A DNA stretch of 34,777 nucleotides, taken from positions 1 to 34,777 of the IMG/VR virus record IMGVR_UViG_3300010149_000064. The stretch is one strand, 5' to 3'. The DNA comes from a virus. Shown one piece after another: positions 14,223 through 34,537 of this stretch. Position numbers and translations under genes: made by a program. Below the pieces are notes generated by a model. That model made no database searches, had not been told where the DNA came from, and saw only the letters and a list, made by a program, of their open reading frames with translations. The number at the start of each line of letters is the position of its first letter. The first letter of the stretch is position 1.

Positions 14223-17025
14223 CTACTATATCCATTTTAAATGTTAGCTCAAGAACCCACACTGCTGGCATGTTTAGTTTAGTGCCTTTAGTGATACGCA
14301 TCTTGGTGCGTTTGGCTCCCAGTTTATCCCGTAGCTCGTTTGTAAGCGAGGTATAGTTAAGCTGATGGTCGGCACTCCATTCTTTCAACGGCTTTGGCAG
14401 CAAGAACAGCTTGTTTGTGTCGGGTTCGTACCGCGCCACAAGCTGACCTCTCGGCACCGCTTCGGGGCGCACAAGGTCGTCTAGTCCGTTCTCGTTCTCA
14501 CCTGCACCGCGCAAGTCTTCGTTGCTGTCGATCATTAGCACATTGTTATAATGCTCTGCGATATAGTTACTCAGAGTTTCCTGCACAGACGAACCCACGT
14601 CATCGACAAAGGCTTTGCGCTCCCGCAACTCAGCCACAAGCCAATCGAACACAGCCTTCACATCATAGTTTACATGCCCTAATTGTTTGGCGATAATTAG
14701 ACCTGCGATCACTGTAGCACACCCCGCAGACCAGAAGCGGTTTTCTGAAGCTAACCCTGCTGCCGCATCTATCCGCCTCTGTGCGTCAAGCACAAGCGCC
14801 TCTGCGTTCTCTCTGTTGTTTATCACCCACTGCACATACTCCACCGCGAGCCAACCGTAATTACGTTCTATGGCTTTTAGAAGCTCGTCAGCATGGCGCT
14901 TTAATCTTGGGTCTACAAGCTTCTGCGGCACCTTTAACTCTAGCAACCGTTGCATCTCTGCTTTCGGTTCGGCTTTTTCTCTGGACAATATATCCCACGC
15001 ACTGGTGTTAGCAGAACTCAGGGCTAGTAATCGCCACGGTTTACCACGCGCACGTTCCGTGTTGCCGCTCTGCGCAAGCCGATTTTTCTGCCTGCCGCCC
15101 GATAGGGCATAGGCATACTCTGACATCTGCAACGTGTTAAGATTTGTCATCTCGTCAGAGACAAGCAGCAGGTTGTGGTACAACTCCCCACGGTTCATGC
15201 GGGAGTTTTGCGTATCGTTCTTCTGCAATATCAACAACTCAGGGTCGCCCCATATAGATAGCGCAGCTTTCGAGGTTGTTGTCTTACCAAAACCTGTCTG
15301 GCTAACGAGATGCACCCCAAGGCTGTTTATACCTGTGAACGGCATAAGCACAGTGCCGTAGCTCATGCCGATAATAAACTGGTGCATCTCCCAATCAGGG
15401 CGGTTGTAGAACTCTAGGTTCGACACAATAGCGTCTTTCTCCCCGCGCTCTATAAACGCTTCTAACATACCTCCAGTTTTTGAAGAGGGTGGGTTGTACC
15501 GAATATCGTTGCCGGTAATTAGTTTATCCCCCAGAACAAACTCTTCCATAATATCATCGTCCACCCAACCAAATTGCCGGTGCGCTTCATCTGCTGTATT
15601 TGTTGCTTGCAATTCTTCAATCCACCGCTGTGTATATGCCATCAATGCCTCCAATGGTTTTATGCCAAACACAGCTACGCCGTGCATGGACATATTTTTG
15701 CGGAACTCATCGCGGGAAGTTACGGATGTTAGAGGCACGGTAAACTCTCGTACCCCATCCCTCGGGAGATGCAGGCAGAACGCGATTACCTCACCCAACT
15801 CTGCATCACGTAGTCGTCGTGTAACGTACAGATCGTTCTGGTACACAACAATTTCTTCGGGGTCGCCTTCTTTATTTACGGTGCGTAAATATACCCCGCC
15901 TGTCTCACCCCTAAAGTACGGACGGGGGAATACAGGTATACTAAAAGTTTTCTCTACAGGGCCACCCAACATGCTCTTGGCTTTGATTTCTACGGGGCCG
16001 CTCGCTTCTTTTATCTTCTGCCCTAGCGTTATCGGAGACTTTATCTTGCCTTTGAACGGGCACTCGCCACACACATTGGGATTAAGCTCGTCAAACTTCT
16101 GGCATGTGTACGGGCCTTTAATCTCAGACAACTTGCGCTGCATCTCGTCGTGGTCGTACCCTTGGTGCTGCTCGGATATCTTTACCGCTGCAACGGTAGC
16201 GTCCTTGCAGAACTTTGCGATAGACAACCCCGCTCGCCATAGCGGTTCGCTGATGGTGTTCTGGTTCTCCCATACGTTCTTTAGCTGCGCACAGCCTCGA
16301 CCGTTCAAAGTCTTAGACACGATAGACTTGAACACGCTCTCTTTGTTTGCAGCCAAAGCTTCTTGCAGTGCGTCTGGCCCTAAATCTATCTGCGTGTTTA
16401 CAGGTTTTAGCTCCGCACCCAACGACTGCATAAACGCCGAAAGCTCCACAGGCACGGGTTCTGTCACACCTATGCGCTCTACTGGTAGCGGGGGATCGCC
16501 TTTATAGTTATGGGTGTTGGGCGGTCGCAATATGCGAGCCGCGTCTGCGGTTACAGCAGGGTCTGCCAACAGCCCACGTTCTGCACAAACTTTCTTTAGC
16601 CGCTCCGCAACAGTTAGCCACTCGACTAACGGCGCAGGTTTTGTCAGGGGCCAGTACACATGTACTCCTCGCCCTGAGTTTATTAACATCGGCTTAGGTA
16701 AGTTTAGCTCCCCTACAAATTTTCGTAGGGCCTGCACCGCTTGCTGCTGATCGGGATACTCCTTGCTTGGGCCACAATCTAAGTCCAAGAACAAAGATTT
16801 AAGAGACGCCACGTTCTCTTTCTTGCGGCTACCTGCTTCTCGCAGGCTACCCAAACCAAAATACACGTCAAAACCGTCTGCATCGAAATGATCTGCGGCT
16901 TTGGCAACAGCTTCTAGGCTATCGTAAAACTTCTGTACCCGTTTATCAGTAGCTGCATTTGCTGCAAATACGCAGTAACACCCACCATCTCCTAGCACAG
17001 AGCGTAAAAATTCTATCGTTTTCAT
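14203..17025 (-). CDS. Primase-polymerase / helicase fusion
   Basis: About 940 residues from the preferred ATG at 17025, because GGAGA sits 8 bases before it while the upstream ATG at 17040 overlaps that site. The N-terminus resembles archaeo-eukaryotic primases: an acidic FLDLDCG motif (D81, D83), SGRGVHVYW (117-125) and a block ending ARILRPPNTHNYK (about 163-175). A Cys cluster at C308, C319, C322 may bind zinc. The C-terminal half is an SF3/DUF927-like helicase ATPase with Walker A SQTGFGKTT (575-583) and Walker B LLLVSDE (619-625). It should synthesise primers and unwind DNA at the phage fork. It follows the ssDNA-binding protein gene. Confidence 0.88.
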   Translation of the reverse strand: MKTIEFLRSVLGDGGCYCVFAANAATDKRVQKFYDSLEAVAKAADHFDADGFDVYFGLGSLREAGSRKKENVASLKSLFLDLDCGPSKEYPDQQQAVQALRKFVGELNLPKPMLINSGRGVHVYWPLTKPAPLVEWLTVAERLKKVCAERGLLADPAVTADAARILRPPNTHNYKGDPPLPVERIGVTEPVPVELSAFMQSLGAELKPVNTQIDLGPDALQEALAANKESVFKSIVSKTLNGRGCAQLKNVWENQNTISEPLWRAGLSIAKFCKDATVAAVKISEQHQGYDHDEMQRKLSEIKGPYTCQKFDELNPNVCGECPFKGKIKSPITLGQKIKEASGPVEIKAKSMLGGPVEKTFSIPVFPRPYFRGETGGVYLRTVNKEGDPEEIVVYQNDLYVTRRLRDAELGEVIAFCLHLPRDGVREFTVPLTSVTSRDEFRKNMSMHGVAVFGIKPLEALMAYTQRWIEELQATNTADEAHRQFGWVDDDIMEEFVLGDKLITGNDIRYNPPSSKTGGMLEAFIERGEKDAIVSNLEFYNRPDWEMHQFIIGMSYGTVLMPFTGINSLGVHLVSQTGFGKTTTSKAALSIWGDPELLILQKNDTQNSRMNRGELYHNLLLVSDEMTNLNTLQMSEYAYALSGGRQKNRLAQSGNTERARGKPWRLLALSSANTSAWDILSREKAEPKAEMQRLLELKVPQKLVDPRLKRHADELLKAIERNYGWLAVEYVQWVINNRENAEALVLDAQRRIDAAAGLASENRFWSAGCATVIAGLIIAKQLGHVNYDVKAVFDWLVAELRERKAFVDDVGSSVQETLSNYIAEHYNNVLMIDSNEDLRGAGENENGLDDLVRPEAVPRGQLVARYEPDTNKLFLLPKPLKEWSADHQLNYTSLTNELRDKLGAKRTKMRITKGTKLNMPAVWVLELTFKMDIVDEGSED

Positions 17026-17045
17026 TATGCTGCTCTCCATTTAAC

Positions 17046-17079
17046 ATCGTGGCGGGGGTTGGACCTGCCCCGCCACGAT
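17046..17079 (-). promoter_or_regulatory. Strong 12-bp hairpin between ssDNA-binding protein and primase genes
   Basis: A perfect 12-bp stem (ATCGTGGCGGGG 17046-17057 with CCCCGCCACGAT 17068-17079) with a 10-nt loop sits between the two genes. No T-run follows in the leftward direction, so a simple terminator is unlikely. It could be an RNA-processing or stability element that lets the abundant ssDNA-binding protein be made in excess over the primase. Function is inferred. Confidence 0.6.
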
Positions 17080-17093
17080 ATGACCCTAGACGA

Positions 17094-17810
17094 TTAGTCC
17101 CACTCGTCTAAGATCGACCCTAAGTCTGTCGCAGGTGCGGGAGCAGCCGCCGCCTTCTTACTGACCTTCTTGGGTTCCGGTGTTTCCTCTGGCAGCTCTT
17201 CTGGCTGTATATCCGCAGAGGAAACTAAGTCTTCAAAAGGTGATGCCGTGTTCTCTTCCACGGAAAAACCTTCTTCTACGTCAAACGGAGAATATGATTT
17301 ACGTTCTTCAAGCTTTGTAACTTGCACTGCTTTCAGCCGTAAAGACACCCCGTGATCTCGCATGGAGTAGGGCACAAATACTACGCTAAGATTTACACGA
17401 CTACCCGATGTCAGTTCAAAACCATCAGGTAGCGATTTGTTCTTAGCGTCTACTTGCAAAGGGGGAGAAGTTATCTCACCCCCGTAAGACCCCTTTAAGA
17501 CAGCCTTACCAACATACATACCATTGTCATCTTTCTTAAATACGTCAGATGCTTTTGGTAATTTATCGGGCCAGTTTTTTTCTTTGGCTGCTCTAGCTTT
17601 ATATGCCTCAGACATAGCGCCATACAATTCTTTGGCCTGATCTTCTGTCATAGTAAAAGAAGTCTCAAACTTTGCGCCTTCTGCATCAGGTTTGCAAGGC
17701 ATTGTTCTGCCCCTATCCCCCGCAGACGGATCGTATTTATACGTCTGATTAAGGCGCGGGTATAGAGCGGTCACATCTCTTATGATGTGCGAAGTAGCAT
17801 TATTAGCCAT
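17094..17810 (-). CDS. Single-stranded DNA-binding protein, DUF2815-like
   Basis: The 238-residue protein resembles the DUF2815 phage ssDNA-binding family, an OB-fold group analogous to T7 gp2.5. Supporting features are the segment with PPLQVDAKNK, the strand SGSRVNLSVVFVPY, the block GVSLRLKAVQVTKLE, and an acidic, disordered C-terminal region ending SILDEWD. Such tails recruit polymerase and helicase. It would coat ssDNA at the phage fork. It starts after GGAGAACACCT and overlaps the upstream gene by 8 bp. The neighbours (primase, polymerase, helicase) agree. Confidence 0.8.
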   Translation of the reverse strand: MANNATSHIIRDVTALYPRLNQTYKYDPSAGDRGRTMPCKPDAEGAKFETSFTMTEDQAKELYGAMSEAYKARAAKEKNWPDKLPKASDVFKKDDNGMYVGKAVLKGSYGGEITSPPLQVDAKNKSLPDGFELTSGSRVNLSVVFVPYSMRDHGVSLRLKAVQVTKLEERKSYSPFDVEEGFSVEENTASPFEDLVSSADIQPEELPEETPEPKKVSKKAAAAPAPATDLGSILDEWD

Positions 17811-19113: not shown

Positions 19114-19162
19114 AAAACTCTCCAAACTTAGTTATACATGGCATATAGTTAGTAAACATAAG

Positions 19163-20698
19163 CTAGTCAAGCACTTCTTTATACAAATCAATAATTTCTG
19201 TATGCGTACTTATCTTGTCGTCTAGTAGCTTGTACACACGGTTCTCAACAAACGAACCCGCAAGCTGTATCACTGTGCATTTATGCTTCTGCCCCGATCT
19301 GTGGACCCTAGCATTTGCTTGTGCGTAGGTTTCCAACGAGGGTGTCGGCCCCCACCACACAACAGTATTTGCTGCTGTAAGCGTAACCCCGTGTGCTGCG
19401 GCTTGGGGCTGTATAAGCAAGACCTTGGGATCTTTCTCGCTTTGGAACTGCGAAAAGATCTCAGTGCGTTTATGCGCAGCTACATCTCCCCGTATGATAG
19501 CGGACGTTATGCCGTCTTTAGTTAGCTTACCGGCTAACAAGTCTATGGTGTGTCGAAACGGTATAAACACAAGCACTTTCTGCGAGCATTCGTCTATCAC
19601 TTCTTTCAGCACCTTGTACCTGTTAGAGATATCGAACTGCACGGTGTCGCCTTCGTCGGTGTATATAGCCCCTGCCGATATCTGTAGCAGTTTGTTTAGG
19701 TTCACCGCAGCATTCACCGCTGTCACACTCTCACCGGCAACTTGCATGACCATACGCTTACGCAACAGGTCGTAAAATGTTTGCTGCTGTTTGGTCATCT
19801 CTACCCTGCGCTTGGTGTACACCATGTCGGGCAAGTCTAAGCATTCATCTTTAGTGAAGCGTATCGCTGGTTGAAGCGCACGGAAAACCGTACTCTTGGC
19901 GTTCTCTTTCGGCGTCCACTTAAACTGAGTAACTTTTATCATAATCTGATCACGGAACGAACTAAAGAAGCTAGGCACACTCTGCGGGTTCACCAGCTTG
20001 GCAAGGCCGTAGGCATCTAGTGGCGACTGCGCAGCGGGAGTACCTGTCATAAGCCATAACCATGTATCGTCTTTGACAAGCTTCTTGAGCGTTTTCCATC
20101 GTTTGGTCTGCGCGTTCTTGTAGTGCGTTGCCTCGTCTATGATGATTAGGTCAAACCCACCCTTGGCGATAGCATCTGCTACAACCTCAACACCGTCATA
20201 GTTTATAATGACGAAATCGGCCCCGCTGTTTATTATCTTTTTGCGCTTCTCTTTCGCGCCATGCGCAACGTCCACGGTGCGGTGCATAGCAAAACTAAAC
20301 AAATCCTCACGCCATGCGCTGTCCATGATAGATAAAGGACACACAACAAGAACTCGTCGTATAATACCTTGCTTCATCAAGAAGTCTGCGGCCCATATCG
20401 CACTGGCTGTTTTGCCTGTGCCTTGTTCGTTGAAGCAGAAGCCCCGCTTGTTCATGGTAAGAAACGCCGCCGTGTCCTTCTGATGTTGGTAGGGCTTGTG
20501 TTTGCCCACCCACGAATAGCGTTTCTCAATCGGTGAAGGCACCTTTATGTTCAATGCTTTCAGCTTATGGGCCTCGTCGATACCCCAATTCACGACGACT
20601 TCATTCATCGACAACTCCTTACTCTTTGCAATCACTGTTGTGATTTGCTTCGGGTTAGGCAGCGTAAGCAGGATGGCTTTATCCTGTACAATCTGCAT
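19163..20698 (-). CDS. SNF2/DEAD-type superfamily 2 helicase
   Basis: 511 residues from ATG 20698, placed after the shared GGAGAATAAC site. The N-terminal ATPase lobe has YQHQKDTAAFL (Q motif-like), Walker A NEQGTGKTASA (about 91-101), motif II IIIDEATHYKN (about 185-195) and motif III MTGTPA (about 217-222). The second lobe has VLVFIPFRHTID, a motif V region and motif VI QANARVHRSGQKHK. This is the standard order for SNF2-like translocases of tailed phages. It probably remodels protein-DNA complexes or fork structures. A GTTAGC-N6-GCTAAC palindrome lies inside its coding sequence at 19521-19538. Confidence 0.92.
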   Translation of the reverse strand: MQIVQDKAILLTLPNPKQITTVIAKSKELSMNEVVVNWGIDEAHKLKALNIKVPSPIEKRYSWVGKHKPYQHQKDTAAFLTMNKRGFCFNEQGTGKTASAIWAADFLMKQGIIRRVLVVCPLSIMDSAWREDLFSFAMHRTVDVAHGAKEKRKKIINSGADFVIINYDGVEVVADAIAKGGFDLIIIDEATHYKNAQTKRWKTLKKLVKDDTWLWLMTGTPAAQSPLDAYGLAKLVNPQSVPSFFSSFRDQIMIKVTQFKWTPKENAKSTVFRALQPAIRFTKDECLDLPDMVYTKRRVEMTKQQQTFYDLLRKRMVMQVAGESVTAVNAAVNLNKLLQISAGAIYTDEGDTVQFDISNRYKVLKEVIDECSQKVLVFIPFRHTIDLLAGKLTKDGITSAIIRGDVAAHKRTEIFSQFQSEKDPKVLLIQPQAAAHGVTLTAANTVVWWGPTPSLETYAQANARVHRSGQKHKCTVIQLAGSFVENRVYKLLDDKISTHTEIIDLYKEVLD

Positions 20699-21672: not shown

Positions 21673-23513
21673 TCACATTCCCCATACGATTTACCCGTAC
21701 CGCTCTCGCAGTCTATAGGTAGGCCTGCGGCCCAATCTGGTGTCTTGCGCATACATTCTTCTACATACGCTTGCGCTTCGGGAACTTCTTCATCCTTCAC
21801 ACAGCAAACAATCGAGTCATGCACGGTAAGGACAACTTTATATCTTTCGGATATACTTAGCAACTGCTCGCCAATGATACAACGAGCTATGGCTTGGCAT
21901 ACATTCTCTACCACCTTGCCGCCGTAAATTCTGTTTCGGCCCCGCCGTACTTTATATCTATATTCGCGTGACCCCTCTTCGGTCATTTCATACTTCAAGT
22001 CCTCGTAGTGTATACAAAGACCTGATGGCAACTTGATGGCGTTCTCTTTTGATAGAACTTTTAGAACATCCCTACGTCCAAATCGAACTGGACCGTTATG
22101 CGTCATTTGCTCCAGTGCAAACTGCGCATCCTTCCACAGTCTATCTATGCTGTGGTTGATACTGCGATAGATACTTATGATCCGCTTGGCTTCTTCGACG
22201 GGTATCTCAAAGCCAAAGTTTTTTAGCTGAGCTTGAAACTTTATACCGCCCATGCCGTACCCTGCACCAAGAATGGTAGTCTTGCCTACAAAGCGTTGGT
22301 CTTTCGTAACGGTCTCTTCTTCGCAGCCGTATATACGCGCAGCCATTTTTATGTACACATCTTCGCCGTTAGCGAACTGGCTAACCAAATCATTTTGCCC
22401 TGCAAGCCACGCCAGAACTCTAGCTTCGATCTGTGCGCTGTCCGCGTCTATGAGCGTATAACCTTCGGGAGCTATAATACTGCTCTTGAGTTTCTTCGCA
22501 TTCGGCCCTCGGCTCGGCAGGTTTTGCAGGTTGATCTTATCCTGTCCACCCCACCGGCCTGTGTGCGCTGCGTAATACCTAATCGGAACCGGGAGAAGTC
22601 CACGTTTACCAATGGATATAAACCTCTCGGTACGTGTTTCTTCTAAGGTACTTTTAGTACCCAAACGTGCAGAGACTAACGACTGCACTTTATCGTCGTC
22701 ATGTTCTAGCAACGCTTTGAACGCCTCGTCCGACTTAGCAAATGCAAAAGTCTCTTTGCCTGTTGTCGGGCTAATCTTTTTCGGCGGCTCAACGCCAAGA
22801 CTTGTAAGCAACTCAGCGAACCTGTTGTTCGACATCAAATCTTTTTTGTCGGTTATGTTCGCATCGCGCAGCAGCTTGTCCTTGCGTTCACGCACTTCTT
22901 CCAGATGTTGCTCCAACAAGAACAAATCTAGGTCAAGCGTAGGCTCAATAAACATCCGCAACGTGCGATCTATTAGCTGTAACTCTTGTTGTGGGAACTG
23001 GTTTCCAACTATTCCGCTGAACATCAGCTTAAAAATCTCGTATGTCAGGTCCACATCGTTACGAGAATACTCTGCATACTTCGCAATTTCTTCTTCGGTA
23101 AAATCAGTTAGCCGCTTGGCTAACGCACGGGTAACTTCATCACCCTTGGCCCCAACGCCGTAGCGTTCAGCCACAGCCTTTAGGCTCACACTCTTTTCCG
23201 TGCCATGTAACGCACGGGCCATGCACATTGTATCAAGCCACAGCTTTGGCTTCACGCCAAATCGCCACCCTAGTATCGCCCCGTCAAACGCGGTGTTATG
23301 ACAAAGTATGGCGCAGGACGAGAAGTCTACGTGCGATAAGAAACGTGTAGTGAGTTCCTCACCTTGTAGCCAACGTGTTGGCTTATCATTCTTTTTTACA
23401 GCTAACCCAATAACCTCAAATCTATCGTCGCGGATATATTCTTCAGTCGTCATCTTCGACAGGCTGTACTCCTTGTCGTAGTACGTCTCGAAATCCAACG
23501 TCACTATGTCCAT
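21669..23513 (-). CDS. Family A DNA polymerase with 3'-5' exonuclease
   Basis: 614 residues from ATG 23513, which GGAGG precedes by 9 bases; the ATG at 23522 is too close to that site. The exonuclease motifs are present: LDFET (D7, E9), CHNTAFDGA (N73, D77) and YSRND (Y149, D153). Polymerase motifs follow: A LIDADSAQIEAR (D356), B KTTILGAGYGMGG (K411, Y419) and C VVLTVHDSIV (H565, D566). This is the T7-type replicative polymerase without a 5'-nuclease domain. A Tyr at the motif B O-helix position is normal for Pol I-like enzymes that discriminate ddNTPs less. Two exact GTTAGC-N6-GCTAAC palindromes lie inside the gene. Confidence 0.95.
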   Translation of the reverse strand: MDIVTLDFETYYDKEYSLSKMTTEEYIRDDRFEVIGLAVKKNDKPTRWLQGEELTTRFLSHVDFSSCAILCHNTAFDGAILGWRFGVKPKLWLDTMCMARALHGTEKSVSLKAVAERYGVGAKGDEVTRALAKRLTDFTEEEIAKYAEYSRNDVDLTYEIFKLMFSGIVGNQFPQQELQLIDRTLRMFIEPTLDLDLFLLEQHLEEVRERKDKLLRDANITDKKDLMSNNRFAELLTSLGVEPPKKISPTTGKETFAFAKSDEAFKALLEHDDDKVQSLVSARLGTKSTLEETRTERFISIGKRGLLPVPIRYYAAHTGRWGGQDKINLQNLPSRGPNAKKLKSSIIAPEGYTLIDADSAQIEARVLAWLAGQNDLVSQFANGEDVYIKMAARIYGCEEETVTKDQRFVGKTTILGAGYGMGGIKFQAQLKNFGFEIPVEEAKRIISIYRSINHSIDRLWKDAQFALEQMTHNGPVRFGRRDVLKVLSKENAIKLPSGLCIHYEDLKYEMTEEGSREYRYKVRRGRNRIYGGKVVENVCQAIARCIIGEQLLSISERYKVVLTVHDSIVCCVKDEEVPEAQAYVEECMRKTPDWAAGLPIDCESGTGKSYGECE

Positions 23514-24617: not shown

Positions 24618-24635
24618 GTTAGTCAGTCGGCTAAC
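24618..24635. repeat. GTTAGY-N6-GCTAAC palindrome (one mismatch), intergenic
   Basis: GTTAGT-CAGTCG-GCTAAC, one base from the consensus, sits at the edge of the pentamer repeat tract in a non-coding gap. It belongs to the dispersed palindrome family described separately. Confidence 0.7.
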
Positions 24636-25829: not shown

Positions 25830-26361
25830 ACCACTCGTCGTCGAGCGCCCACAAAACGTAAGACGCTTTTGTTTGCGTACCCTTACGTTCTATCTTTGCT
25901 TCCCATATCTCCCCCGCAGTATGCATACGCTGTAACGCAAGCTGAACTGCTGCGGTGTCAGAAGTTAGCTTACTGGCTAACTCCCCAACCCTGTGCGGAT
26001 ATGAGTGTTCTTCGTCACGCATAAGAGCCGTAATGCGGTCCTCTAGCGTAGCTTGCTGCACCCTCGGTGAAGGTGTTTCGTCAAACGGATCTAGCCCGTC
26101 CAATAGCGCAACCTTACCCACTACCTTGTAAGGAGTGTTAGCCTTGTGGTTGTTTTGATTAGGGGCCACCCGCGCTGTAAAGAAATCGCCTTCTTGCAGG
26201 TTATTGTTTTCGATATAATTCCTGCCGACAAAACAGCTTTCACCCTCGGTGGTGACAGCAAACCCTGCGCCCCCTGCGTTATGCGGAACACGCTCCATAA
26301 TCATAACGACTTCTTTTATTTCGCCAAAAAGTTTTTTCAGTTGTTCTTGTGTGATATCCAT
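25810..26361 (-). CDS. OB-like plus winged-helix nucleic-acid-binding protein
   Basis: 183 residues. The N-terminal part (about 28-86) has GGAGFAVTTEGESCFVGRNY, GDFFTARVAPNQ and TPYKVVGKV, resembling a small OB or cold-shock-like barrel. Residues 106-172 read as a winged helix (EDRITALMRDEE, VGELASKLTSDTAAVQLALQ, TKASYVLWAL). It likely binds DNA or RNA and may regulate the operon. One exact GTTAGC-N6-GCTAAC palindrome overlaps the helix-turn-helix codons at 25964-25981. The start is an ATG whose GGAGAA site is about 14 bases upstream, longer than for its neighbours. Confidence 0.7.
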   Translation of the reverse strand: MDITQEQLKKLFGEIKEVVMIMERVPHNAGGAGFAVTTEGESCFVGRNYIENNNLQEGDFFTARVAPNQNNHKANTPYKVVGKVALLDGLDPFDETPSPRVQQATLEDRITALMRDEEHSYPHRVGELASKLTSDTAAVQLALQRMHTAGEIWEAKIERKGTQTKASYVLWALDDEWFALDYE

Positions 26362-26852: not shown

Positions 26853-27225
26853 CTACAACTCCTTCTAAAGGGCGCGTACACTCCAAGGGAATTTTAAGAC
26901 ACACAGAAAACGCCAACATTTCCAACTTGTCTCTACTGACAGGGTTAGCCTCATGGCTAACGTAGAAAACATGACGGTCTTTACGAAGACCTACGCCTTC
27001 GATTATGTGCCCGTAGTCATCTTCCCCCATCATCATAAGCACCGCTAGTTTTCCCTGTATCCAATCTGGCAAATCACTTACATACTTACCAAAGTTTTCT
27101 ATCTCGTAACACTCTGTGCCTAAACACGTTACATCGACAGCAAACGATGAAGGTTGTATGTAAATGCGATATACCGTCTCGTCAAGGGGGGTGTCAAGAT
27201 TTATAATTTTAGGTTTGAGCGACAT
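26845..27225 (-). CDS. Unknown protein
   Basis: 126 residues from ATG 27225, preceded by GGGAGA with proper spacing. The longer reading starts inside the previous gene. The sequence has several strands (TVYRIYIQPSSFAVDVTCLG) and a hydrophobic helix with LAVLMMMGEDDYG. No family is recognised. It overlaps the upstream gene by 17 bp and the downstream one by 8 bp. Confidence 0.6.
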   Translation of the reverse strand: MSLKPKIINLDTPLDETVYRIYIQPSSFAVDVTCLGTECYEIENFGKYVSDLPDWIQGKLAVLMMMGEDDYGHIIEGVGLRKDRHVFYVSHEANPVSRDKLEMLAFSVCLKIPLECTRPLEGVVDG

Positions 27226-28072
27226 AGAACAGTCTCCCTGCGAGAGCATGAAAGCCGACATTCGGAACAAACGTACCTTGCTCAACCATCTGCAATGTGG
27301 ACACCTTACGTTTAAGCTCTTCGTCTAGCTGATCCACATCGCACCCGTAATGATTGCTAGGGTCTGGCTCCCAATTCCATTCCTTACCATCCATGTTAGT
27401 GTACACGTTGGCAGACTGCGTACCGCGTGGCGAGATGTTGATATACACGACATCAAACATATCCTTACCGGAGGACGTGTCCTCCCCACTGTAGTTAAGG
27501 AATGCTTTGATTTGTTCACCAAAGTTTGCATCAAGCCATGTATGTCCCGTGTTCACAAGATTCTTAAGCTCTCGCTCCAAGGGCGAGCTTTTACCACGAC
27601 CTAGCCCATCGGTGACATCGTTAGCCAACTGTCTAACCTTCCGCGAACTGTAGTCGTCTATGTCTCGCATCTGCCTACGCAGGTTTCTAAGCTCGTTTGC
27701 CACAGCTACGTGACACGGTATGGTGCGCAGGTGGCGGGTAGCGTTGGATAGGCCTTTCTCGAAATGCTTGGCAAATGCCATGTAATGCTGCGCGTTGTAG
27801 TCGTTGTACCTACAGTTTTCGATGTTGCGACTGTGAACAATATACGCAGCATCTCCGTTGGCTTTTTCGGTGAAGTCACCGTAACCCACAAAACCTAGCG
27901 CATAGATTTCGTTCTCACGATAGATCCAAACGCTGTTCCTACGCTTGTAACTCCACTTTGCTTTTAGTGCAGCGGCCACAGCATCTGCGAACCTAGCTAC
28001 CTCATTATCCACGTAGCTATTGTTCTCTGTCTGTTTCATCGCTTCTGACGTTAAGTAAGGATTGTATCCCAT
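27209..28072 (-). CDS. Unknown phage protein
   Basis: 287 residues from ATG 28072, chosen because GGAGAATGACT sits at the shared distance. The sequence alternates charged helices with a Tyr/Asn-rich block (YNDYNAQHYMAFAKHFEKG) and a middle region LRRQMRDIDDYSSRKVRQL. The C-terminal part has VVYINISPRGTQSANVY. No catalytic motif or family is recognised. Confidence 0.6.
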   Translation of the reverse strand: MGYNPYLTSEAMKQTENNSYVDNEVARFADAVAAALKAKWSYKRRNSVWIYRENEIYALGFVGYGDFTEKANGDAAYIVHSRNIENCRYNDYNAQHYMAFAKHFEKGLSNATRHLRTIPCHVAVANELRNLRRQMRDIDDYSSRKVRQLANDVTDGLGRGKSSPLERELKNLVNTGHTWLDANFGEQIKAFLNYSGEDTSSGKDMFDVVYINISPRGTQSANVYTNMDGKEWNWEPDPSNHYGCDVDQLDEELKRKVSTLQMVEQGTFVPNVGFHALAGRLFYVAQT

Positions 28073-28092
28073 AGTCATTCTCCATTTTTATA

Positions 28093-29097
28093 TTATGATT
28101 TGAAACCAAGGTGCTTGTTCACCCAGTAATTGTATTTGTTTCGTATTGCTGACAGATCCTCCTTCGTCTCTACTTGTTGCACTTTGTAAGAGGCGTGTTG
28201 CCACCACCCATCGGCTGTGGTTTCCGCGAACTCTACAAACAGATGTAGGCGCAGCGGATGTTCGGGGTCTGTAATGATACTCCTACAATTCTTCACGTTG
28301 TAGGTATCTCTGGATCGTATGTACCCTGCTCCCGTTGTTTCCGAATAATATTCATACGCCTCGGTGCGCATCTTTCGGATGTAGCTGTACTCGTTATCCG
28401 TAAGCGGCAGCATGTTTGCGATTGTCATGCCCCACTCAAAGAACTCTCTCAGCGGCTCCTTGAACTTGGCTTTCAACTCTTTGTTGACACGCGGCGGTAT
28501 CGGCAGACCCTCGCCTGTTTCTGGATCACGCAGCCACTTCCCGTCAGGAGTTAGCTTGAAGGCTAACGCCGTGTTGTCTTTGCGGTGCGTAAAATTTTGC
28601 CAATGGGGGTTCACCTCTTTCGGCACGGTTCTGCCTTTGGCTATGAAATGTCTATCGTTATCCCCGTAATTACTGGTCAGATTGATATACTGCTTCCCGT
28701 TGGACACTAGGAAGTACATACCTCTCGGTGTGTGTCGTGATAAGAACTGATACCTACTGACATGGTTCCACGGCCCTGTGCCGTTGCGTATCTTAACGCT
28801 TGTGGTTCCGTCACGGTGCTTGCGCCACACGACAGCAGCGTAAAATTCGGTATCCGCTTTGGTAACGGTTCTGTCAGCGCCCCACGTTTTAAACACGGGG
28901 TCGCCAAAGCAATATCCGTCAAGAAACGCATAGCAGTAATCGCTGAGCTTAACGATGCGCTCCCACTTACGCTTACGATCTCCGATAGGTCGAACATCCT
29001 CTGCTTTAGTGTGACATTTCGATATCAAAGGTTTGACAGCATTGTAGTGATGCTCCACCTCTGCAAAAGTTTGGAATGCTGAGTATGTAAGTGCCAT
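28093..29097 (-). CDS. Unknown phage protein
   Basis: 334 residues, starting after GGAGAATAACTA. It is rich in Tyr, Trp, His and Arg, with recurring strand-like segments (FYAAVVWRKHRDGTTSVKI, YQFLSRHTPRGMYFLVS). No catalytic motif or family is recognised. The Trp/Tyr-rich, strand-heavy content could suit a nucleic-acid- or carbohydrate-binding protein. It follows a series of small genes in the leftward operon. Confidence 0.6.
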   Translation of the reverse strand: MALTYSAFQTFAEVEHHYNAVKPLISKCHTKAEDVRPIGDRKRKWERIVKLSDYCYAFLDGYCFGDPVFKTWGADRTVTKADTEFYAAVVWRKHRDGTTSVKIRNGTGPWNHVSRYQFLSRHTPRGMYFLVSNGKQYINLTSNYGDNDRHFIAKGRTVPKEVNPHWQNFTHRKDNTALAFKLTPDGKWLRDPETGEGLPIPPRVNKELKAKFKEPLREFFEWGMTIANMLPLTDNEYSYIRKMRTEAYEYYSETTGAGYIRSRDTYNVKNCRSIITDPEHPLRLHLFVEFAETTADGWWQHASYKVQQVETKEDLSAIRNKYNYWVNKHLGFKS

Positions 29098-29678: not shown

Positions 29679-30889
29679 CACATATCCTCCGATTTGATGT
29701 GAATTGTTTTGCCGTTGGTCGGACGCGCACTCGCATTGTCCAACACGCACCACAGGGTCGGATGATGCCAGTTGCCCCAGCCTCCGAATAGATACCCATC
29801 GGTCAGCAACACGATAGCTTGCGGGTCGAGCTTATGCTCTGTGATGTAGTTAGCCACACAGCTAACATCCGTGCCGCCACCGCCTTCGGGCTGCGTGGTG
29901 TGTATCATGTTGTCCAACTCGTACTGCTCGTACACTTCAGCACGACAGATCTCTGTGTCCCAATACAAGATGCGAACCCGCTCGGGGCGTAGCATATCGC
30001 AGATGGATTTCGTCTCGGTCATAAACGCAGGCAACACTCCCGGCGCGAATGTCGAGCCTGACGTGTCGATGCCAAGTACCAACTCGCCAATGGTCTCGCT
30101 GAACGTCGATGGCAGATACACGTTTTGTGCGATGAACCTACGCTTGGGCTTGCGCCACGTCGAATTGTCGTTACCCGCACAGGTAGCCATGAAGAACTCG
30201 CGGAACGGTTCTTTCCAATCGACCTTGGGCTGCAACAACTCCTCCATGTCACGACTGCCACCGCTTCCGGTTTTGCCTGCCACGATGTTGCCTTGACGGA
30301 TTGCCTCGTCGATCTCACGCTCTAGCTCGCGCTTCTCCTCCTCGGTCATCTCCTTGGCGCTTTCCCAATCGTGATCGTCGAACGGCTTACCGCCGCCATC
30401 GTCGCCACCATCGCCTTCACCGTCACCGCTTTCACCGCCTTCGCGTTCTTTGCGCTTCTTGTAGATGTCATCAAAGATTTTAGCTGTGCCCCAACCACGA
30501 TAGGTCTCGTTGAGACAGCCGCCTTCGATCCACTCCACGAACTCTCCATACTCGTCGAGTATCTTGATGTTGATTTCATAGTCCATCGCACGGTTGGCTG
30601 TGTTGGAACACTTCTTCCAGAGATGCCGCCACGTAATCAAGTGACGATACATCTTGTGATACATCTCATGCAGAACGAGGAAGCGTAGCTGCTTGTCGTT
30701 CAGGTTACGTACAAACTCACGTCCATACCACTCGTCACGTCCATCGGTACATGCCGTGCGTGTCTTGTCACATACAACACGCTTGCCCAACATAACCAAC
30801 CCGCCAATGGCAGGTTGTTTGTGCATGATTTGAACAACGGCTTTTTCGATCCGCTGCTCCTCGGTTAGCTTACCGCCTAACTGTAACAT
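29678..30889 (-). CDS. VWA-domain protein with N-terminal metallopeptidase-like domain (DUF2201-like)
   Basis: 403 residues. Residues 74-83 carry HEMYHKMYRH, an HExxHxxxxH zinc signature, followed by NRAMDYEIN (99-107), as in the DUF2201 peptidase-like domain. An acidic Gly/Asp-rich linker (about 149-175) leads to a C-terminal von Willebrand A domain with a complete MIDAS: DTSGS (D275, S277, S279), GGGTDVS (T340) and LLTDGY (D364). VWA proteins of this type work with MoxR-type AAA ATPases, and one lies next to it upstream. The pair probably remodels or matures a target protein. Two GTTAGC-type palindromes lie in the gene (30864-30881 and 29849-29866). Confidence 0.88.
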   Translation of the reverse strand: MLQLGGKLTEEQRIEKAVVQIMHKQPAIGGLVMLGKRVVCDKTRTACTDGRDEWYGREFVRNLNDKQLRFLVLHEMYHKMYRHLITWRHLWKKCSNTANRAMDYEINIKILDEYGEFVEWIEGGCLNETYRGWGTAKIFDDIYKKRKEREGGESGDGEGDGGDDGGGKPFDDHDWESAKEMTEEEKRELEREIDEAIRQGNIVAGKTGSGGSRDMEELLQPKVDWKEPFREFFMATCAGNDNSTWRKPKRRFIAQNVYLPSTFSETIGELVLGIDTSGSTFAPGVLPAFMTETKSICDMLRPERVRILYWDTEICRAEVYEQYELDNMIHTTQPEGGGGTDVSCVANYITEHKLDPQAIVLLTDGYLFGGWGNWHHPTLWCVLDNASARPTNGKTIHIKSEDM

Positions 30890-30900
30890 TCTTATCCTCC

Positions 30901-32007
30901 TTATTGATCTGCTGAAAACAGATGTGAGTTATCCGCTGCCCACTGCGTGAACTTGCGGTTCTGCATGACCATCGCCTGCTTGCTGTATCTTGGCGCACGG
31001 ACACCATTGGCAAACATACCTTGCGCCTCGGCATCTAGCCGCGCCATGTAGTCCATCCAAGAGTTGAGCCAGTCTTGTTCGATAGCTGCCAGTGTCCGAT
31101 AGACCACCATACAGATACCTGCCGCTGTGGTTGGAACCTTGGCGTTTTTGGGATCGGACTTGATCGACTCCAGACTAGGTAGCTGATCGGCTAACTTGAG
31201 GTGAGCCATCAGATCCATGCCGCCACGCATACCAATCGTACCAATGAGCAACGCGGTCAGAGACTTGTCGTTGAGCTTGTCGCGCATCTTCATGTAGTTT
31301 GACGCCTTGTGCAGAGACCTCGCTGTGCAGAACGATCGACGCCCATTGGCTTTGGGGTGGTTGATGTAGACGTTATCTTCGGGGTCTTTCACATCGTCAG
31401 ACGATGCCAACACCTGCGGGTTGTCCTTGACCCATGCAAGCGTGACGTGATCTAGCTTGTGGTTGATACCCCATTCGATCCACTCCACCGCATTCGGCTT
31501 GCGCATCCGCACGAATGTCACGCGGTTGCAAGTATGCGGCAAGAACGTGTCGCCCACATTCTCGAACCCAAGGTTGGTCGTCGCAAAGACAACGCTCTCT
31601 GGGTGTAGCTCATGCATACCGATCATTCGCTCTTGGAACAAACGGTTGAGCGGGTTCTGGATAGCGCGGTTCTTGCCTGCCTCGTCGATCATAATAATGA
31701 GCGGCGTATCCTTGAGGTGCATACCAAGCTCTTCGTTAGTCGCAAAGCTAACATAGTCGTTGCCTTCCAAATCCTTGAACTTTGGCAACATCAGGTCGCC
31801 TGCATCGGCCTTGGTCGTGCAGTCGAAATAGATCGCCTTGTGGTCAGGCAGATCCTCGGCCAACACCTTGAGGATTGATGACTTGCCGCTGCCCATCTCG
31901 CCCTCGACGATGATGGTTGTCTTATCCTCTGGTGGCAGAGGAACTTGAACTGCGATGGCGTTAGCAATTTCTTCGATGCTCAGTGCATACATTGTATTAG
32001 CTGACAT
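30901..32007 (-). CDS. MoxR-type AAA+ ATPase
   Basis: 368 residues, starting after GGAGAATAACT. Walker A GEMGSGKSS (36-44), Walker B LIIMIDEAGK (103-112), sensor 1 FATTN (141-145) and an arginine-finger region CNRVTF (160-165) are all present, as in the AAA_5 MoxR/CobS-like clade. MoxR ATPases are chaperones for complex assembly and act with VWA partners. The immediate neighbours are a VWA/metallopeptidase gene and a DUF3150 gene, a cluster also seen in bacteria and plasmids. Substrate unknown. Two one-mismatch palindromes lie inside the gene. Confidence 0.92.
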   Translation of the reverse strand: MSANTMYALSIEEIANAIAVQVPLPPEDKTTIIVEGEMGSGKSSILKVLAEDLPDHKAIYFDCTTKADAGDLMLPKFKDLEGNDYVSFATNEELGMHLKDTPLIIMIDEAGKNRAIQNPLNRLFQERMIGMHELHPESVVFATTNLGFENVGDTFLPHTCNRVTFVRMRKPNAVEWIEWGINHKLDHVTLAWVKDNPQVLASSDDVKDPEDNVYINHPKANGRRSFCTARSLHKASNYMKMRDKLNDKSLTALLIGTIGMRGGMDLMAHLKLADQLPSLESIKSDPKNAKVPTTAAGICMVVYRTLAAIEQDWLNSWMDYMARLDAEAQGMFANGVRAPRYSKQAMVMQNRKFTQWAADNSHLFSADQ

Positions 32008-32025
32008 AGTTATTCTCCAATCTGT

Positions 32026-33060
32026 TTATATGTCTAGTGTTGGCAGCGCAGCGATGGCTGCATCTACTTCGGCTTTTGTCTGCTTGCGCAGGGACTCGTC
32101 GTCACGCAGGGCAGCGGGTGTGACTCCAAGCATCGCATCTTCCAGACGCTCTGCCATAGCAGTCATATGAGGTGAGTTAGCCACGTTGCTAACTTTGAGC
32201 AGTCCGACCATCTCGGTCACGTTGGACACAAGCGTATCACGGAATGTTTTGGCTCCGATCTTGCGGCGCTTGGTACGCCCCGCATCGTCCACGTACTCTA
32301 TGATATCGGTCTCGTAGTCGAGGCGCTCCGACATGTTAGACAGCGCGTCATAGGTACGCTTCCATATGTCACCCATCGCGGTCTCGAACTGCGTGGTGTA
32401 GAACTTCTCGTACTTGTTAGCCAACTGGCTAATCCCTTCGTTGGCGATGTCCAAGCGGAAGTCACCAGAGGTAGGTAGCGGCATTTCATCGAGCGTGAAT
32501 GAGAACTTGCGTGACAACTTCTCTAGGCTTGGATAGTCGTCAGGGTTCGCAAGATCACCCAAGAACAGATGCGCATCCTCGACAGCTTGCTCGTAGTTAT
32601 CCAAGAACTCTTGAACCAACTCATAGAACTTGTTCTGCATACCCGTCATTGCTTCGGTGTATTTGAAATACTGCGCGGTAGGGCATAGCTGCCAACCCGT
32701 CTTACCCCAAGGCATCGTCATGCGTGTGTGCATGTCACGCGCCGCAGATACATGCGTCTGTATTGCTTTTAGGTACTCGTTGTTACCCAATAGCTTTTTG
32801 TTGACGTTAGCCATACCGCGCTCGGCGGCGTTAGCGTCCGACACTTCGGCAGACGCTTTGCGATCCAACTTGCGGCCTGCCCAGTTTGATATGGTCATAC
32901 TGACCAACAACGCAGCGGATGAAATCGAAACAATGTCATCTGCGTTGGGAGTGGTAGCTGTGTTGTTCGTGGCGTTAGCTGTGCAGCTAACTTCCACCAC
33001 GTTGTCCATACCGTCAAATAAACTGGACTTACCTTCGCCCATATTACCAATCATATTCAT
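32026..33060 (-). CDS. DUF3150 protein
   Basis: 344 residues, starting after GGAGAATAACT. The central part fits DUF3150, with ISNWAGRKLDRKASAEV, a segment with AARDMHTRMTMPWGKTGWQL, AQYFKYTEAMTGM, and FSFTLDEMPLPTSGDFRLD. The family often occurs beside MoxR and VWA genes, as it does here. An oddity is a Walker A-like stretch at the N-terminus, GNMGEGKSS (5-13), without any matching Walker B, so it is probably not an ATPase. It may be an adaptor or substrate of the MoxR-VWA pair. Three palindromes of the dispersed family lie inside the gene. Confidence 0.82.
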   Translation of the reverse strand: MNMIGNMGEGKSSLFDGMDNVVEVSCTANATNNTATTPNADDIVSISSAALLVSMTISNWAGRKLDRKASAEVSDANAAERGMANVNKKLLGNNEYLKAIQTHVSAARDMHTRMTMPWGKTGWQLCPTAQYFKYTEAMTGMQNKFYELVQEFLDNYEQAVEDAHLFLGDLANPDDYPSLEKLSRKFSFTLDEMPLPTSGDFRLDIANEGISQLANKYEKFYTTQFETAMGDIWKRTYDALSNMSERLDYETDIIEYVDDAGRTKRRKIGAKTFRDTLVSNVTEMVGLLKVSNVANSPHMTAMAERLEDAMLGVTPAALRDDESLRKQTKAEVDAAIAALPTLDI

Positions 33061-33062
33061 AG

Positions 33063-33299
33063 TTATTCTCCAACATATTTATTGAGACCTTTGAGGTCGT
33101 TGCGGTTTGTCACAAGGGTAGCCCCTTGCTTGTGCGCGATAGGTGCGATGCACCAACCTGCGCGTTCTTCACGGGCGCGGAAGTCTCCGCAGTCCATGCA
33201 GTAATTATACCCGATGTTGTAACGCTCGGGGTGTAGCGTATCCTCGCCGCATGAGCGGCAGGTCAGCATCTGAATACCATCCATTGTAAACGCAGCCAT
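33063..33299 (-). CDS. Zinc-ribbon small protein
   Basis: 78 residues from ATG 33299, overlapping the upstream stop (TGATG). It has two Cys pairs, LTCRSCGED and YCMDCGDF, giving a C-x2-C ... C-x2-C ribbon in the middle, followed by a short basic C-terminus. Similar small ribbons flank the MoxR-VWA cluster on its other side. Function unknown. Confidence 0.65.
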   Translation of the reverse strand: MAAFTMDGIQMLTCRSCGEDTLHPERYNIGYNYCMDCGDFRAREERAGWCIAPIAHKQGATLVTNRNDLKGLNKYVGE

Positions 33300-33541
33300 C
33301 ACTCGTCACCCCAACGCTTGCGGGCGTGAATGTCACGCTTGTTGATTGCGCGATAGGATGGCGCGGGGTCGTAGGTTGCAGGCATACGCTCGACAAGAGC
33401 GCGAGCTTTGGTTGGCATGACGCGCACCCCAAAGCCGTGGGTTTGGAAAAGGTATTCTTCGATGGCTTGTGCCTCGTCGCGTGTTAGGCCGTTGGTCAGA
33501 GTGTTAGCTGACCGGCTAACTGTTTCGGTGTTGTAAGACAT
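33299..33541 (-). CDS. First gene after the leftward promoter, unknown
   Basis: 80 residues from ATG 33541 (MSYNTETVSR), chosen over a longer reading because GAGGATCAGTC supports it and the promoter TSS lies about 28 bases upstream. It has a helix TRDEAQAIEEYLFQTHGF and a basic C-terminus. No family is recognised. An exact GTTAGC-N6-GCTAAC palindrome starts 22 bp inside the gene (33503-33520). Confidence 0.65.
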   Translation of the reverse strand: MSYNTETVSRSANTLTNGLTRDEAQAIEEYLFQTHGFGVRVMPTKARALVERMPATYDPAPSYRAINKRDIHARKRWGDE

Positions 33542-33575
33542 GACTGATCCTCGTTGCAAAAGTGAACGTACCACA

Positions 33576-33604
33576 AATATAGCATATATAAGTAAACGTG
33601 TCAA
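33576..33604 (-). promoter_or_regulatory. Near-consensus sigma-70 promoter of the leftward operon
   Basis: Read leftward: TTGACA (complement of 33599-33604), 17-bp spacer, TATATT (complement of 33576-33581). Transcription should start near 33569, giving a leader of about 28 nt before the ATG at 33541. The -35 is a perfect consensus match, implying strong early expression by host RNA polymerase. Palindromes at 33705-33722 and 33503-33520 flank it. Confidence 0.8.
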
Positions 33605-33641
33605 TACTTATCTTGTTGTGAGTAAATGTATTTTGATCAGT

Positions 33642-34001
33642 AATGTTCCGTTACTTGGTGAGTAACTGTGTGTAGACGTGAGTAGCTTGGTATGGGGGGT
33701 GGGTGTTAGCTGGTAGGCTAACTTATTGAAAACAAAGTAATGTTCCTAATGTTCCGTAGTGAAACGGGTAATGTTCCGTTGTAAGTCTTTGTTATTAAAG
33801 CAATGTTCCAATGTTCCGCGATTTTAGGGTACTACAGAGGTATAATGATGTTGTATGGAATATGCTGCATAAGGGGAAGGAAGGGTCACATGGAAGTGTA
33901 GTAATATTTAACGGAACATTTGGAACATTAGGAACATTACTTTAAAATCAATAGGTTAATTGTTCCATTCTTAAAAACCATTTTGGAACATTAGGAACAT
34001 T
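33642..34001. repeat. Iteron-like octamer array AATGTTCC / GGAACATT
   Basis: Eleven exact copies: AATGTTCC at 33642, 33739, 33748, 33770, 33802, 33810 and the complement GGAACATT at 33913, 33922, 33931, 33985, 33994. Neighbouring copies are spaced 9 bp (33739/33748, 33913/33922/33931, 33985/33994) or 8 bp (33802/33810). All left copies point one way and all right copies the other, around a 95-bp spacer containing TATAAT at 33841. This is the architecture of initiator-binding iterons or of a cooperative operator. The binding protein is unknown. Confidence 0.8.
33705..33722. repeat. GTTAGC-N6-GCTAAC palindrome (exact), upstream of the promoter
   Basis: GTTAGC-TGGTAG-GCTAAC lies about 100 bp upstream of the leftward -35 element, adjacent to the 31-bp inverted repeat. 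Part of the dispersed family. Confidence 0.85.
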
Positions 34002-34015
34002 ACTTTGTTTTCAAT
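33725..34015. repeat. Perfect 31-bp inverted repeat flanking the iterons
   Basis: The 31 bases 33725-33755 (beginning ATTGAAAACAAAGTAATG) are the exact complement of 33985-34015 (ending ACTTTGTTTTCAAT). Each arm contains two of the octamers. A third, near-identical copy with four mismatches lies at 33922-33952, in the same orientation as the right arm. The arms are separated by 229 bp and could form a large cruciform or bind the same protein at both ends. Confidence 0.8.
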
Positions 34016-34027
34016 GACTTATGCAAA

Positions 34028-34222
34028 TCGCTCACCGCTCACCGCTCATAAAATAACTGGCATCGCCCAGATAGAGTTAGCCGTGCAGCTAACTGCAACT
34101 TGTGTGGGACAAGACTCCGGTGTACAACATCGCGTGACGACAGCTCGCCCTGTGTCGCTCACCGCTCACCGCTAATACACAGAACTGGTATCATAACTGG
34201 CATCGTAAATAACTGGTGTCGC
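34028..34222. repeat. TCGCTCACC and ATAACTGG repeats
   Basis: An identical 19-mer TCGCTCACCGCTCACCGCT occurs at 34028-34046 and 34155-34173. Each is followed by copies of a short unit near ATAACTGGCATCG (34053-34065, a variant near 34182-34192, 34193-34205, and a variant 34208-34222). The composite repeat suggests a duplication or a second set of protein-binding sites beside the iterons. Confidence 0.6.
34076..34093. repeat. GTTAGC-N6-GCTAAC palindrome (exact), intergenic
   Basis: GTTAGC-CGTGCA-GCTAAC lies between the two TCGCTCACC repeats in the control region. Part of the dispersed family. Confidence 0.85.
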
Positions 34223-34229
34223 GGGGCAC

Positions 34230-34258
34230 AAAAAAGCCCCGACCGTTTCCGGTCAGGG
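34230..34258 (-). terminator. Intrinsic terminator of the genes entering from the right
   Basis: Leftward RNA forms a 9-bp stem (complement of 34250-34258 with 34237-34245, one G-U pair) closed by a GAAA tetraloop, then G and C and six U (34230-34235). This classic terminator ends the transcript of the two right-edge genes before the control region, so the 33541 operon is separately promoted. Confidence 0.88.
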
Positions 34259-34265
34259 CGTGGGG

Positions 34266-34490
34266 TTACATATCGAGCGCATCCACAACATCGGTTGGAT
34301 CGCCTTGATGCCAATGCAGCTCAGCAGATATAGCCTCGGCATCAATGCGCATCGCGTTTTCTACTTGTGCGAGTGCAAGCTTTAGCTCATGCCGTATGGC
34401 ATGAAGATTTTTTGTTTGTTCATGTATTGTGGAAGCAGCAGCCTCGGCATCCAGCAACATATCGGCCAGTGATTCATTCTTATAATTCAT
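34266..34490 (-). CDS. Small helical unknown protein
   Basis: 74 residues, nearly all helical (ADMLLDAEAAASTIHEQTK, then IRHELKLALAQVENAMRID), with a short acidic tail. GAAAG precedes the start. It is the last gene before the terminator. No family is recognised. Confidence 0.6.
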   Translation of the reverse strand: MNYKNESLADMLLDAEAAASTIHEQTKNLHAIRHELKLALAQVENAMRIDAEAISAELHWHQGDPTDVVDALDM

Positions 34491-34519
34491 AACTTTTCTT
34501 TCATGTGAGGGTTAGTGGG

Positions 34520-34537
34520 GTTAGCCGGTTAGCTAAC
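34520..34537. repeat. GTTAGC-N6-GCTAAC palindrome (exact), extended arms
   Basis: GTTAGC-CGGTTA-GCTAAC with three more complementary bases on each side (GGG and CCC, 9-bp arms in all), lying between the two right-edge genes. The longest version of the dispersed palindrome. Confidence 0.85.

Follow-up and report, generated by a model that had tools for sequence, protein, structure and literature searches.

Why is one palindrome repeated along the replication genes of a virus, and what recognizes it there? The question is raised by the IMG/VR virus record IMGVR_UViG_3300010149_000064, which was analysed over its whole length of 34,777 bases (the window) and is probably a fragment of a virus genome. 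The palindrome GTTAGC-N6-GCTAAC is dispersed over the replication arm of this window. Our analysis suggests that the copies are probably operator- or stoperator-type sites through which a dimeric regulator, encoded by the phage, acts on the early/replication arm. Stoperator-like control was one of the options listed in an earlier sequence-only reading, and it is now supported as the best one. No description of these sites was found in the literature searched, a search whose coverage left out most subscription papers.

Distribution and architecture of the palindrome

The palindrome occurs in 13 exact and 7 one-mismatch copies, all inside 16613-34537 and all in the replication arm (Table 1), and the count of the sequence-only reading was thus reproduced. 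When the gap between the half-sites was scanned from 0 to 29, we found 13 exact pairs at gap 6, one at gap 7 and none at any other gap. Dinucleotide shuffles of the window (n = 200) gave a mean of 0.000 exact copies with a maximum of 0. Synonymous-codon shuffles of the 27 listed early genes (n = 300) gave 0.083 exact copies on average (maximum 2) against 10 observed, and 0.73 copies at up to one mismatch (maximum 4) against 16 observed. Coding bias is excluded, because codon-preserving shuffles give far fewer copies than the genes hold. The sequence-only reading had proposed this control and had claimed that the site is under selection, and the excess over the codon shuffles bears the claim out.

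The centres of 16 of the 20 sites fall within genes. Nine in-gene sites lie in reading phase 0 and seven in phase 2, while phase 1 would give an in-frame TAG stop. Both stop-free phases are used, and therefore the palindrome is not a peptide motif. The spacer leans to Y-R-N-N-Y-R (21 non-orthologous exact sites, both strands), so that the full site can be written approximately as GTTAGCYRNNYRGCTAAC, a dyad of 18 bp. The spacer had earlier been described as variable; it remains true that the site is not a duplicated segment, but the spacer is not free. The symmetry at the DNA level agrees with the earlier suggestion of a dimeric binder.

We call the window's palindrome type A and those of other lineages types B to F, H and R; handles beginning with G or L denote the records and loci compared. 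Confinement to the arm was calculated for exact sites in six records, with arm limits that we set ourselves and that are rough for G018 and G019. The fractions were 14/14 in G001, 14/14 in G003, 7/7 in G007, 11/11 in G018, 12/12 in G019 and 11/11 in G008. Confinement thus holds for types A, B and D in the records examined. In ten records, 5 to 15 exact sites were observed where 0 to 0.005 were expected from shuffles.

Palindromes in related phages

Relatives were taken as the best 80 of 262 loci from a polymerase search of viral contigs. The exact site was present in all 30 loci with a polymerase identity of at least 78%, and none of these 30 had sites of types B-D. Absence from related phages had been named as a point that would speak against the site, and among these close relatives it was not seen. 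In G001 (61,378 bases), which we judge from its gene content to be near-complete, 21 sites at up to one mismatch all lie within 39967-58048, a span that begins at the divergent promoter gap and reaches the DUF927 gene; the structural arm has none.

Repeated dyads were sought blindly, locus by locus, and sister clades proved to have other dispersed palindromes: GTAGTG-N3-CACTAC (type B), CTAGGAC-N2-GTCCTAG (type C) and TTCGGGCA-N2-TGCCCGAA (type D). Evidence was thinner for TGTTAGT-N5-ACTAACA (type E, 3 copies in L067), TTTACGGA-N2-TCCGTAAA (type F, 3 copies in L074) and GCGTGG-N7-CCACGC (type H, 2 exact copies in L038 and 3 in L057). One B-type match each was found in the D-type L079, L080, L081 and G008. 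The phages with type C sites span 47 to 63% GC. All 11 type D sites lie outside genes, where 11.9% of the sequence is noncoding by a hand-edited gene list.

Relatives more distant than the type A loci thus carry a different palindrome in this arm, at positions that they share with one another. Cultured phages have versions of their own. Rhizobium phage RHph_TM3_14A (host Rhizobium etli; type R), with a polymerase 36.7% identical, has 15 exact copies of GTTACC-N6-GGTAAC, 11 of them in the early arm. Synechococcus phage MinM2 (host as listed) has 14 exact copies of GGTTCAG-N-CTGAACC and 28 at up to one mismatch in 49,015 of its 65,014 bases. Twenty-two of these 28 lie in the early arm; 16 of the 22 are outside annotated genes in an arm that is 9.8% noncoding, and 9 of the 16 stand 17-28 nucleotides (nt) before a start codon. 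In L230, a contig binned as a planctomycete metagenome-assembled genome, ATTAG-N5-CTAAT has 8 copies against 0.05 in base shuffles.

KPP25 showed no palindrome set of similar size, and neither did HTVC023P, HTVC027P, 023Pt_psg01 and DSL-LC04, four phages found through related terminases (KPP25, HTVC027P and 023Pt_psg01 as far as they were read, in part). Among 14 loci from bacterial genome contigs, only L230 had a dispersed set. L234 carries from 2191 a tandem array of 25 dyads GCCGGC-N12-GCCGGC at 18-base spacing, a simple repeat and not a dispersed site set. Each phage lineage has its own version of the palindrome, and the sites are clade-specific.

Geometry, shared positions and promoters

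Inspection shows dyads of 15-19 bp, with a TA step at 5-6.5 bp from the dyad centre in types A, R, C, F, B and E. Because dyad length and TA position are shared, this geometry suggests one family of dimeric binders.

Positions are shared as well. In all six records with an SNF2 match examined for types B (two), C (two), D and F, a type-specific palindrome ends 10, 10, 12, 12, 13 or 13 nt before that match. Likewise, a palindrome ends 24, 50, 50, 50, 55 or 61 nt before the match to the nuclease encoded at 26371-26667 in six of seven records of types B-F; in the seventh, G007, the distance is 187 nt.

Eight segments, chosen close to where the early arm begins, were scanned for a TTGACA-N17-TATA-like pattern, which yields consensus matches only. 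Seven of the eight contained such matches, eight in total: two in type A (orthologous), three in type B, one in type C and two in type D. After the -10 box of all eight, the next site begins 55, 80, 59, 57, 52, 37, 118 or 55 nt downstream. In the same segments, 19-26% of random positions have a site 37-118 nt downstream; for seven independent promoter-site cases the chance is about 3e-5, with a range picked after the fact. In records of types B, C and D, too, matches of the form of the window's P2 are followed by a type-specific palindrome. G001 has a consensus match TTGCGT-N16-TATAAT between its first two sites, the second of which stands before the first early gene begins.

A G-rich element like GGGGGGTNGGGGGTAGGTGGGG, outside the window, was seen once in each of 13 of 29 sources scanned. 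It lies in the gap upstream of the first early gene and adjoins the first palindrome, in types A, B and C and more loosely in R (G001 39946; G003 17943; L115 8357; L149 1179; L151 9813; L155 9814; L166 2375; L212 7450; RHph_TM3_14A 17659). A G-quadruplex, a packaging element or an origin element is possible.

Proposed mechanism

We infer that a protein binds the palindromes, that it is encoded by the phage, and that it represses by blocking elongation. The regulator would bind some 10-20 copies from the early promoter region onward. It would most probably lower early transcription, largely by obstructing elongating RNA polymerase, because the sites are found past promoter matches, in the gaps that immediately precede start codons, or within genes; such places would suit a block of elongation better than one of initiation. 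Protein and sites may drift together, so that the sequence is particular to each lineage while the geometry, a dyad of about 15-19 bp, is shared. The palindromes of the window look like one version of a diversifying, fast-changing on/off control system.

Candidate binding proteins

Two candidate binders proposed from the sequence are disfavoured. The recognition helix of the HTH_17 (helix-turn-helix) protein encoded at 18503-18727 varies within one site type (RKW, RTW and RNW in type B; RAW, RSW and RTW in type C); this protein is also present in G008 (43505-43678). The OB/winged-helix protein (25810-26361) occurs in loci of types A, C and E and has no match in types B and D (E up to 1), whose loci do carry sites. 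A further protein, HTH-DUF6378 (23618-24058), was rejected as well: its HTH differs widely among type A loci, and L024 has type A sites together with an HTH that resembles the type D version.

The leading, although contradicted, candidate is the first early gene. Its full copy is found in G001 (40114-40689). It was compared with site type using three protein queries and 50 loci, from which we dropped L113 (the G001 contig), L122, L129 and L137 (partial gene). All 46 remaining type A, B and D loci carry the matching palindrome, and none of the 46 carries another of types A-D. Among the dropped loci, L113, L129 and L137 match too, and L122 is without a site. Linkage to the backbone is not the whole cause of this agreement, because the D phage L123 pairs with L133 in first gene (53% identity) and site, despite an AAA protein closer to seven B phages (73-78%) than to that of L133 (69%).

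When four first-gene profiles were run with filters off against 1,892 open reading frames (ORFs), the best non-self match was another type's first gene (E 8e-6 to 0.0016). Because of these matches, most first genes look like one fast-diverging family, on evidence that is borderline but better than that of a profile-profile comparison. In that comparison, made with hhalign on shallow alignments, the probabilities were low at 14.8% (B-A), 17.8% (B-D) and 0.1% (A-D), and the first gene of RHph_TM3_14A was matched by none of the four profiles. Within types B and D, a central segment picked after viewing the alignments shows higher conservation than the remainder (77 vs 61% in B, 82 vs 66% in D). 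Searches of Pfam and PHROGs with four of the first genes yielded no significant match. Against PDB sequences, profiles of types B (best E 0.63) and D (no match) found nothing, and Foldseek and VIA-align gave no usable structural match for the type B gene.

Evidence weighing against the proposed regulator

A number of observations weigh against a phage regulator of this kind. Type C sites coexist with at least four highly divergent first genes. L166 and L212 exchange this gene (2537-3187 vs 6594-7265; 32% identity) between flanks that are 95.0% and 95.7% identical, and both keep type C sites; so clean an exchange is as expected for a gene that may be under diversifying selection. Because type C sites are unchanged across divergent and exchanged first genes, we regard the first early gene as a tentative candidate for the binder. 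AlphaFold predicts an all-helical structure for the type B first gene, to which nothing in the PDB matched, and its model for type A is unusable (predicted local distance difference test score, pLDDT, of 40).

The sites themselves also show discordant features. Neither of the two shared places has a site in type A (distances of 1669 nt for SNF2 and 276 nt for the nuclease), and 16 of the 20 sites in the window, which is of type A, sit in genes. The L133 segment gave no promoter match when scanned. Four of the 15 exact sites of RHph_TM3_14A are outside the early arm. None of types A-D was found in 12 of 29 loci at 71-73% polymerase identity or in 8 of 21 at 65-69%; some of these hold E, F or H, and others are too short to judge.

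Finally, genes of lysogeny were sought. No tyrosine integrase (PF00589) or serine resolvase (PF00239) was detected in six records, whose completeness is not known. ParA (PF13614) and ParB_N (PF02195) were likewise matched in none of the six, while the controls were positive in 14/14 and 10/14 genomes. HTH_3 had no match above the cut-off in these records; one sub-threshold match fell in the HTH_17 gene of G007. Within the limits of these families and records, the phages look non-temperate, and a classical immunity role would thus stand without its lysogeny module.

A more far-reaching form of the proposal is doubtful. The first early gene would encode a new, structurally unrecognised family of early DNA-binding proteins, and the phages, apparently non-temperate, would use a stoperator circuit without lysogeny. 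Their palindrome would have been replaced repeatedly, often at conserved positions, giving regulatory groups, perhaps for superinfection exclusion, among the lytic phages of a large group.

Alternative explanations

The same phage protein could instead act positively at its sites, through activation, antitermination, loading of replication or compaction of DNA over the arm. The sites do span the whole replication arm and flank an iteron block that resembles a replication origin. However, they lie 37-118 nt downstream of all eight promoter matches, and iteron sequence and palindrome type vary independently by inspection; therefore the origin would have its own recognition. We consider positive action unlikely. 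It is also conceivable, though quite improbable, that a host transcription factor or nucleoid protein binds the sites, which the phage exploits, evades or titrates, and that the types differ with the hosts. The very divergent first genes beside type C sites would fit such a protein, as would the failure of the search among early proteins to yield a phage binder. Against it, type C occurs in phages of 47 to 63% GC, which suggests several hosts with one site, and the places in types B, C, D and F are constant whatever the site sequence.

The palindromes could also form hairpins in early mRNA and control its translation, processing or stability, and many of those in types B, C, D, F and MinM2 stand just upstream of ribosome-binding sites or start codons. 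We examined 54 distinct single-mismatch sites in mRNA orientation, among which some orthologues remain. The mispairs left were G-U in 14, A-C in 14 and others in 26, with no preference for wobble pairs, and therefore the site acts as DNA. Positions 7 and 12, which are partly conserved, are unpaired (C..A 8, C..G 8, T..G 3, other 2; n = 21), and one site of G001 lies upstream of the apparent early promoter. Hairpins are hence very improbable. Equally remote is a role in partition. N15-like plasmid prophages carry centromere-like partition sites of a ParABS-type system, and dispersed palindromes with GTT...AAC half-sites are reminiscent of some parS sequences; but PF13614 and PF02195 had no match in six records with most controls positive, and in the tested records of types A, B and D the sites keep to one arm. 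The least probable explanation is recognition by a modification or restriction enzyme, an option of the sequence-only reading that would suit a bipartite palindrome. Against it, ten to sixteen bases are specified, one-arm confinement holds in the tested A, B and D records, many sites of types B, C, D and F and of MinM2 directly precede genes, and both sequence and gap change between sister clades.

Comparison with known systems

For the operator/stoperator-type sites proposed here, the Streptomyces phage phiC31 offers a comparison. About 18 near-identical palindromic operators, the conserved inverted repeats (CIRs), are spread over the early region of this temperate phage, mainly between genes, and are bound by the phage repressor. 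The palindromes described here are likewise dispersed over the early region. Unlike the CIRs, they are replaced clade by clade, which is not known for phiC31.

In Cluster A mycobacteriophages (L5, Bxb1 and relatives), two reports (PMC6550527, PMC9283540) describe more than 20 dispersed stoperators per regulator, in promoter regions and short intergenic spaces, which are proposed to stop both initiation and elongation; one site lies upstream of the repressor gene. According to these reports, site motifs and repressor diverge together between related phages, and the stoperators are 13-bp, asymmetric, oriented and monomer-bound in temperate phages with integrase or parABS. The present sites are similar in having many dispersed copies, including copies near early promoters (here by consensus match). 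They differ in being a symmetric 18-bp dyad, and other types are dyads too, as known from sequence. In siting, type D (11/11) and MinM2 (16/22) are intergenic as in Cluster A, whereas 16 of the 20 sites of the window are in genes. First gene and site type agree in 46/46 A, B and D loci, as co-divergence would have it, but disagree within type C. Unlike in Cluster A, matches to PF00589, PF00239, PF13614 and PF02195 were found in none of six records.

Another report (PMC10516654) describes the SPbeta repeated element (SPBRE) of a temperate Bacillus subtilis phage, a 15-bp motif in promoter regions bound by the tyrosine-recombinase-like MrpR; it was discovered in silico before being shown to bind the phage master repressor. 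The present palindrome is also a dispersed phage site first found in silico, but a tyrosine-recombinase-like protein (PF00589) was matched in 0 of 6 records. Neither Cluster A stoperators nor SPBRE were adopted as the class, because the sites are symmetric and no integrase or parABS match was found.

Other features of the window and its relatives

The minus strand of the window forms the replication arm. It encodes a DUF927 protein, which we take to be a primase-helicase, an SNF2 helicase, a PD-(D/E)XK nuclease, polymerase A and an Hjc-like nuclease. It also encodes an Enc34-type single-stranded-DNA-binding-like protein (match under the Pfam cut-off) and a trio of AAA ATPase, DUF3150 and VWA (DUF2201) proteins at 29678-33060, of which the AAA and DUF3150 matches are under their cut-offs. 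The plus strand carries lysis genes and, judged from length and order, probably virion genes. The stretch 16500-34777 had no near match among 50,697 phage records. VWA was detectable in RHph_TM3_14A, MinM2 and L230, all three site-bearing; L231 and L232 have VWA and DUF3150, yet no palindrome set in 22 kb.

A mirrored iteron array surrounds an AT-rich core at 33643-34000, with ATGTTCC at 33643, 33740, 33749, 33771, 33803 and 33811 and GGAACAT at 33913, 33922, 33931, 33985 and 33994. It is likely to be a replication origin, and palindromes at 33705 and 34076 flank it. The layout is similar in relatives, but their iterons are different (TGTACCA, AAGTTCC and TGGTATG by inspection) and are not tied to palindrome type. 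A repeated element, GATRCCAGTT, lies upstream of the array on the minus strand (34195-34204, 34183-34192 and 34055-34064). In relatives it often stands a few bases after a palindrome, and its tail is longer and conserved in types B, C and D by inspection.

No tRNA gene was found in nine loci. Rfam gave a single match in six sources, RF03012 (Mu-gpT-DE RNA) at L155 286-338 on the minus strand (69 bits). The terminase large subunit is one ORF in G003 (18732-20318) and two overlapping ORFs in G001 (37625-39212), the latter by a frameshift or a sequencing error.

Table 1. Palindrome copies and associated features, in window coordinates.
Feature	Position	Strand	Remark
Palindrome, 1 mismatch	16613..16630	no strand	in DUF927 gene (putative primase-helicase)
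Palindrome, exact	19521..19538	no strand	in SNF2 helicase gene
Palindrome, exact	22368..22385	no strand	in DNA polymerase A gene
Palindrome-like, 2 mismatches	22804..22821	no strand	outside the count of 20
Palindrome, exact	23107..23124	no strand	in DNA polymerase A gene
Palindrome, 1 mismatch	24618..24635	no strand	outside listed genes
Palindrome, exact	25964..25981	no strand	
Palindrome, exact	26944..26961	no strand	
Palindrome, 1 mismatch	27620..27637	no strand	
Palindrome, exact	28550..28567	no strand	
Palindrome, exact	29849..29866	no strand	
Palindrome, 1 mismatch	30864..30881	no strand	at VWA gene start
Palindrome, 1 mismatch	31178..31195	no strand	
Palindrome, 1 mismatch	31735..31752	no strand	
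Palindrome, exact	32176..32193	no strand	
Palindrome, 1 mismatch	32416..32433	no strand	
Palindrome, exact	32974..32991	no strand	
Palindrome, exact	33503..33520	no strand	begins 55 nt after -10 box of promoter match P2
Promoter-like match P2, TTGACA-N17-TATATT	33576..33604	-	pattern match
Palindrome, exact	33705..33722	no strand	intergenic, adjoins iteron block
Palindrome, exact	34076..34093	no strand	intergenic, opposite side of iteron block
Palindrome, exact	34520..34537	no strand	intergenic, directly downstream of first early gene
First early gene, 3' part (candidate regulator)	34549..34777	-	5' end and promoter outside window

Implications

In cultured and uncultured phages alike, the palindromes would amount to a series of alternative operator alphabets, each requiring 10-20 sites to change along with a single regulator. 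It has long been asked how a regulator can shift its specificity if so many sites have to change with it. Sequences already exist for related phages whose alphabets differ and for others whose alphabets are identical, and the cultured MinM2 and RHph_TM3_14A make the question testable. If the proposed control is true, stoperator-type regulation would extend to phages in which no lysogeny module has been detected.

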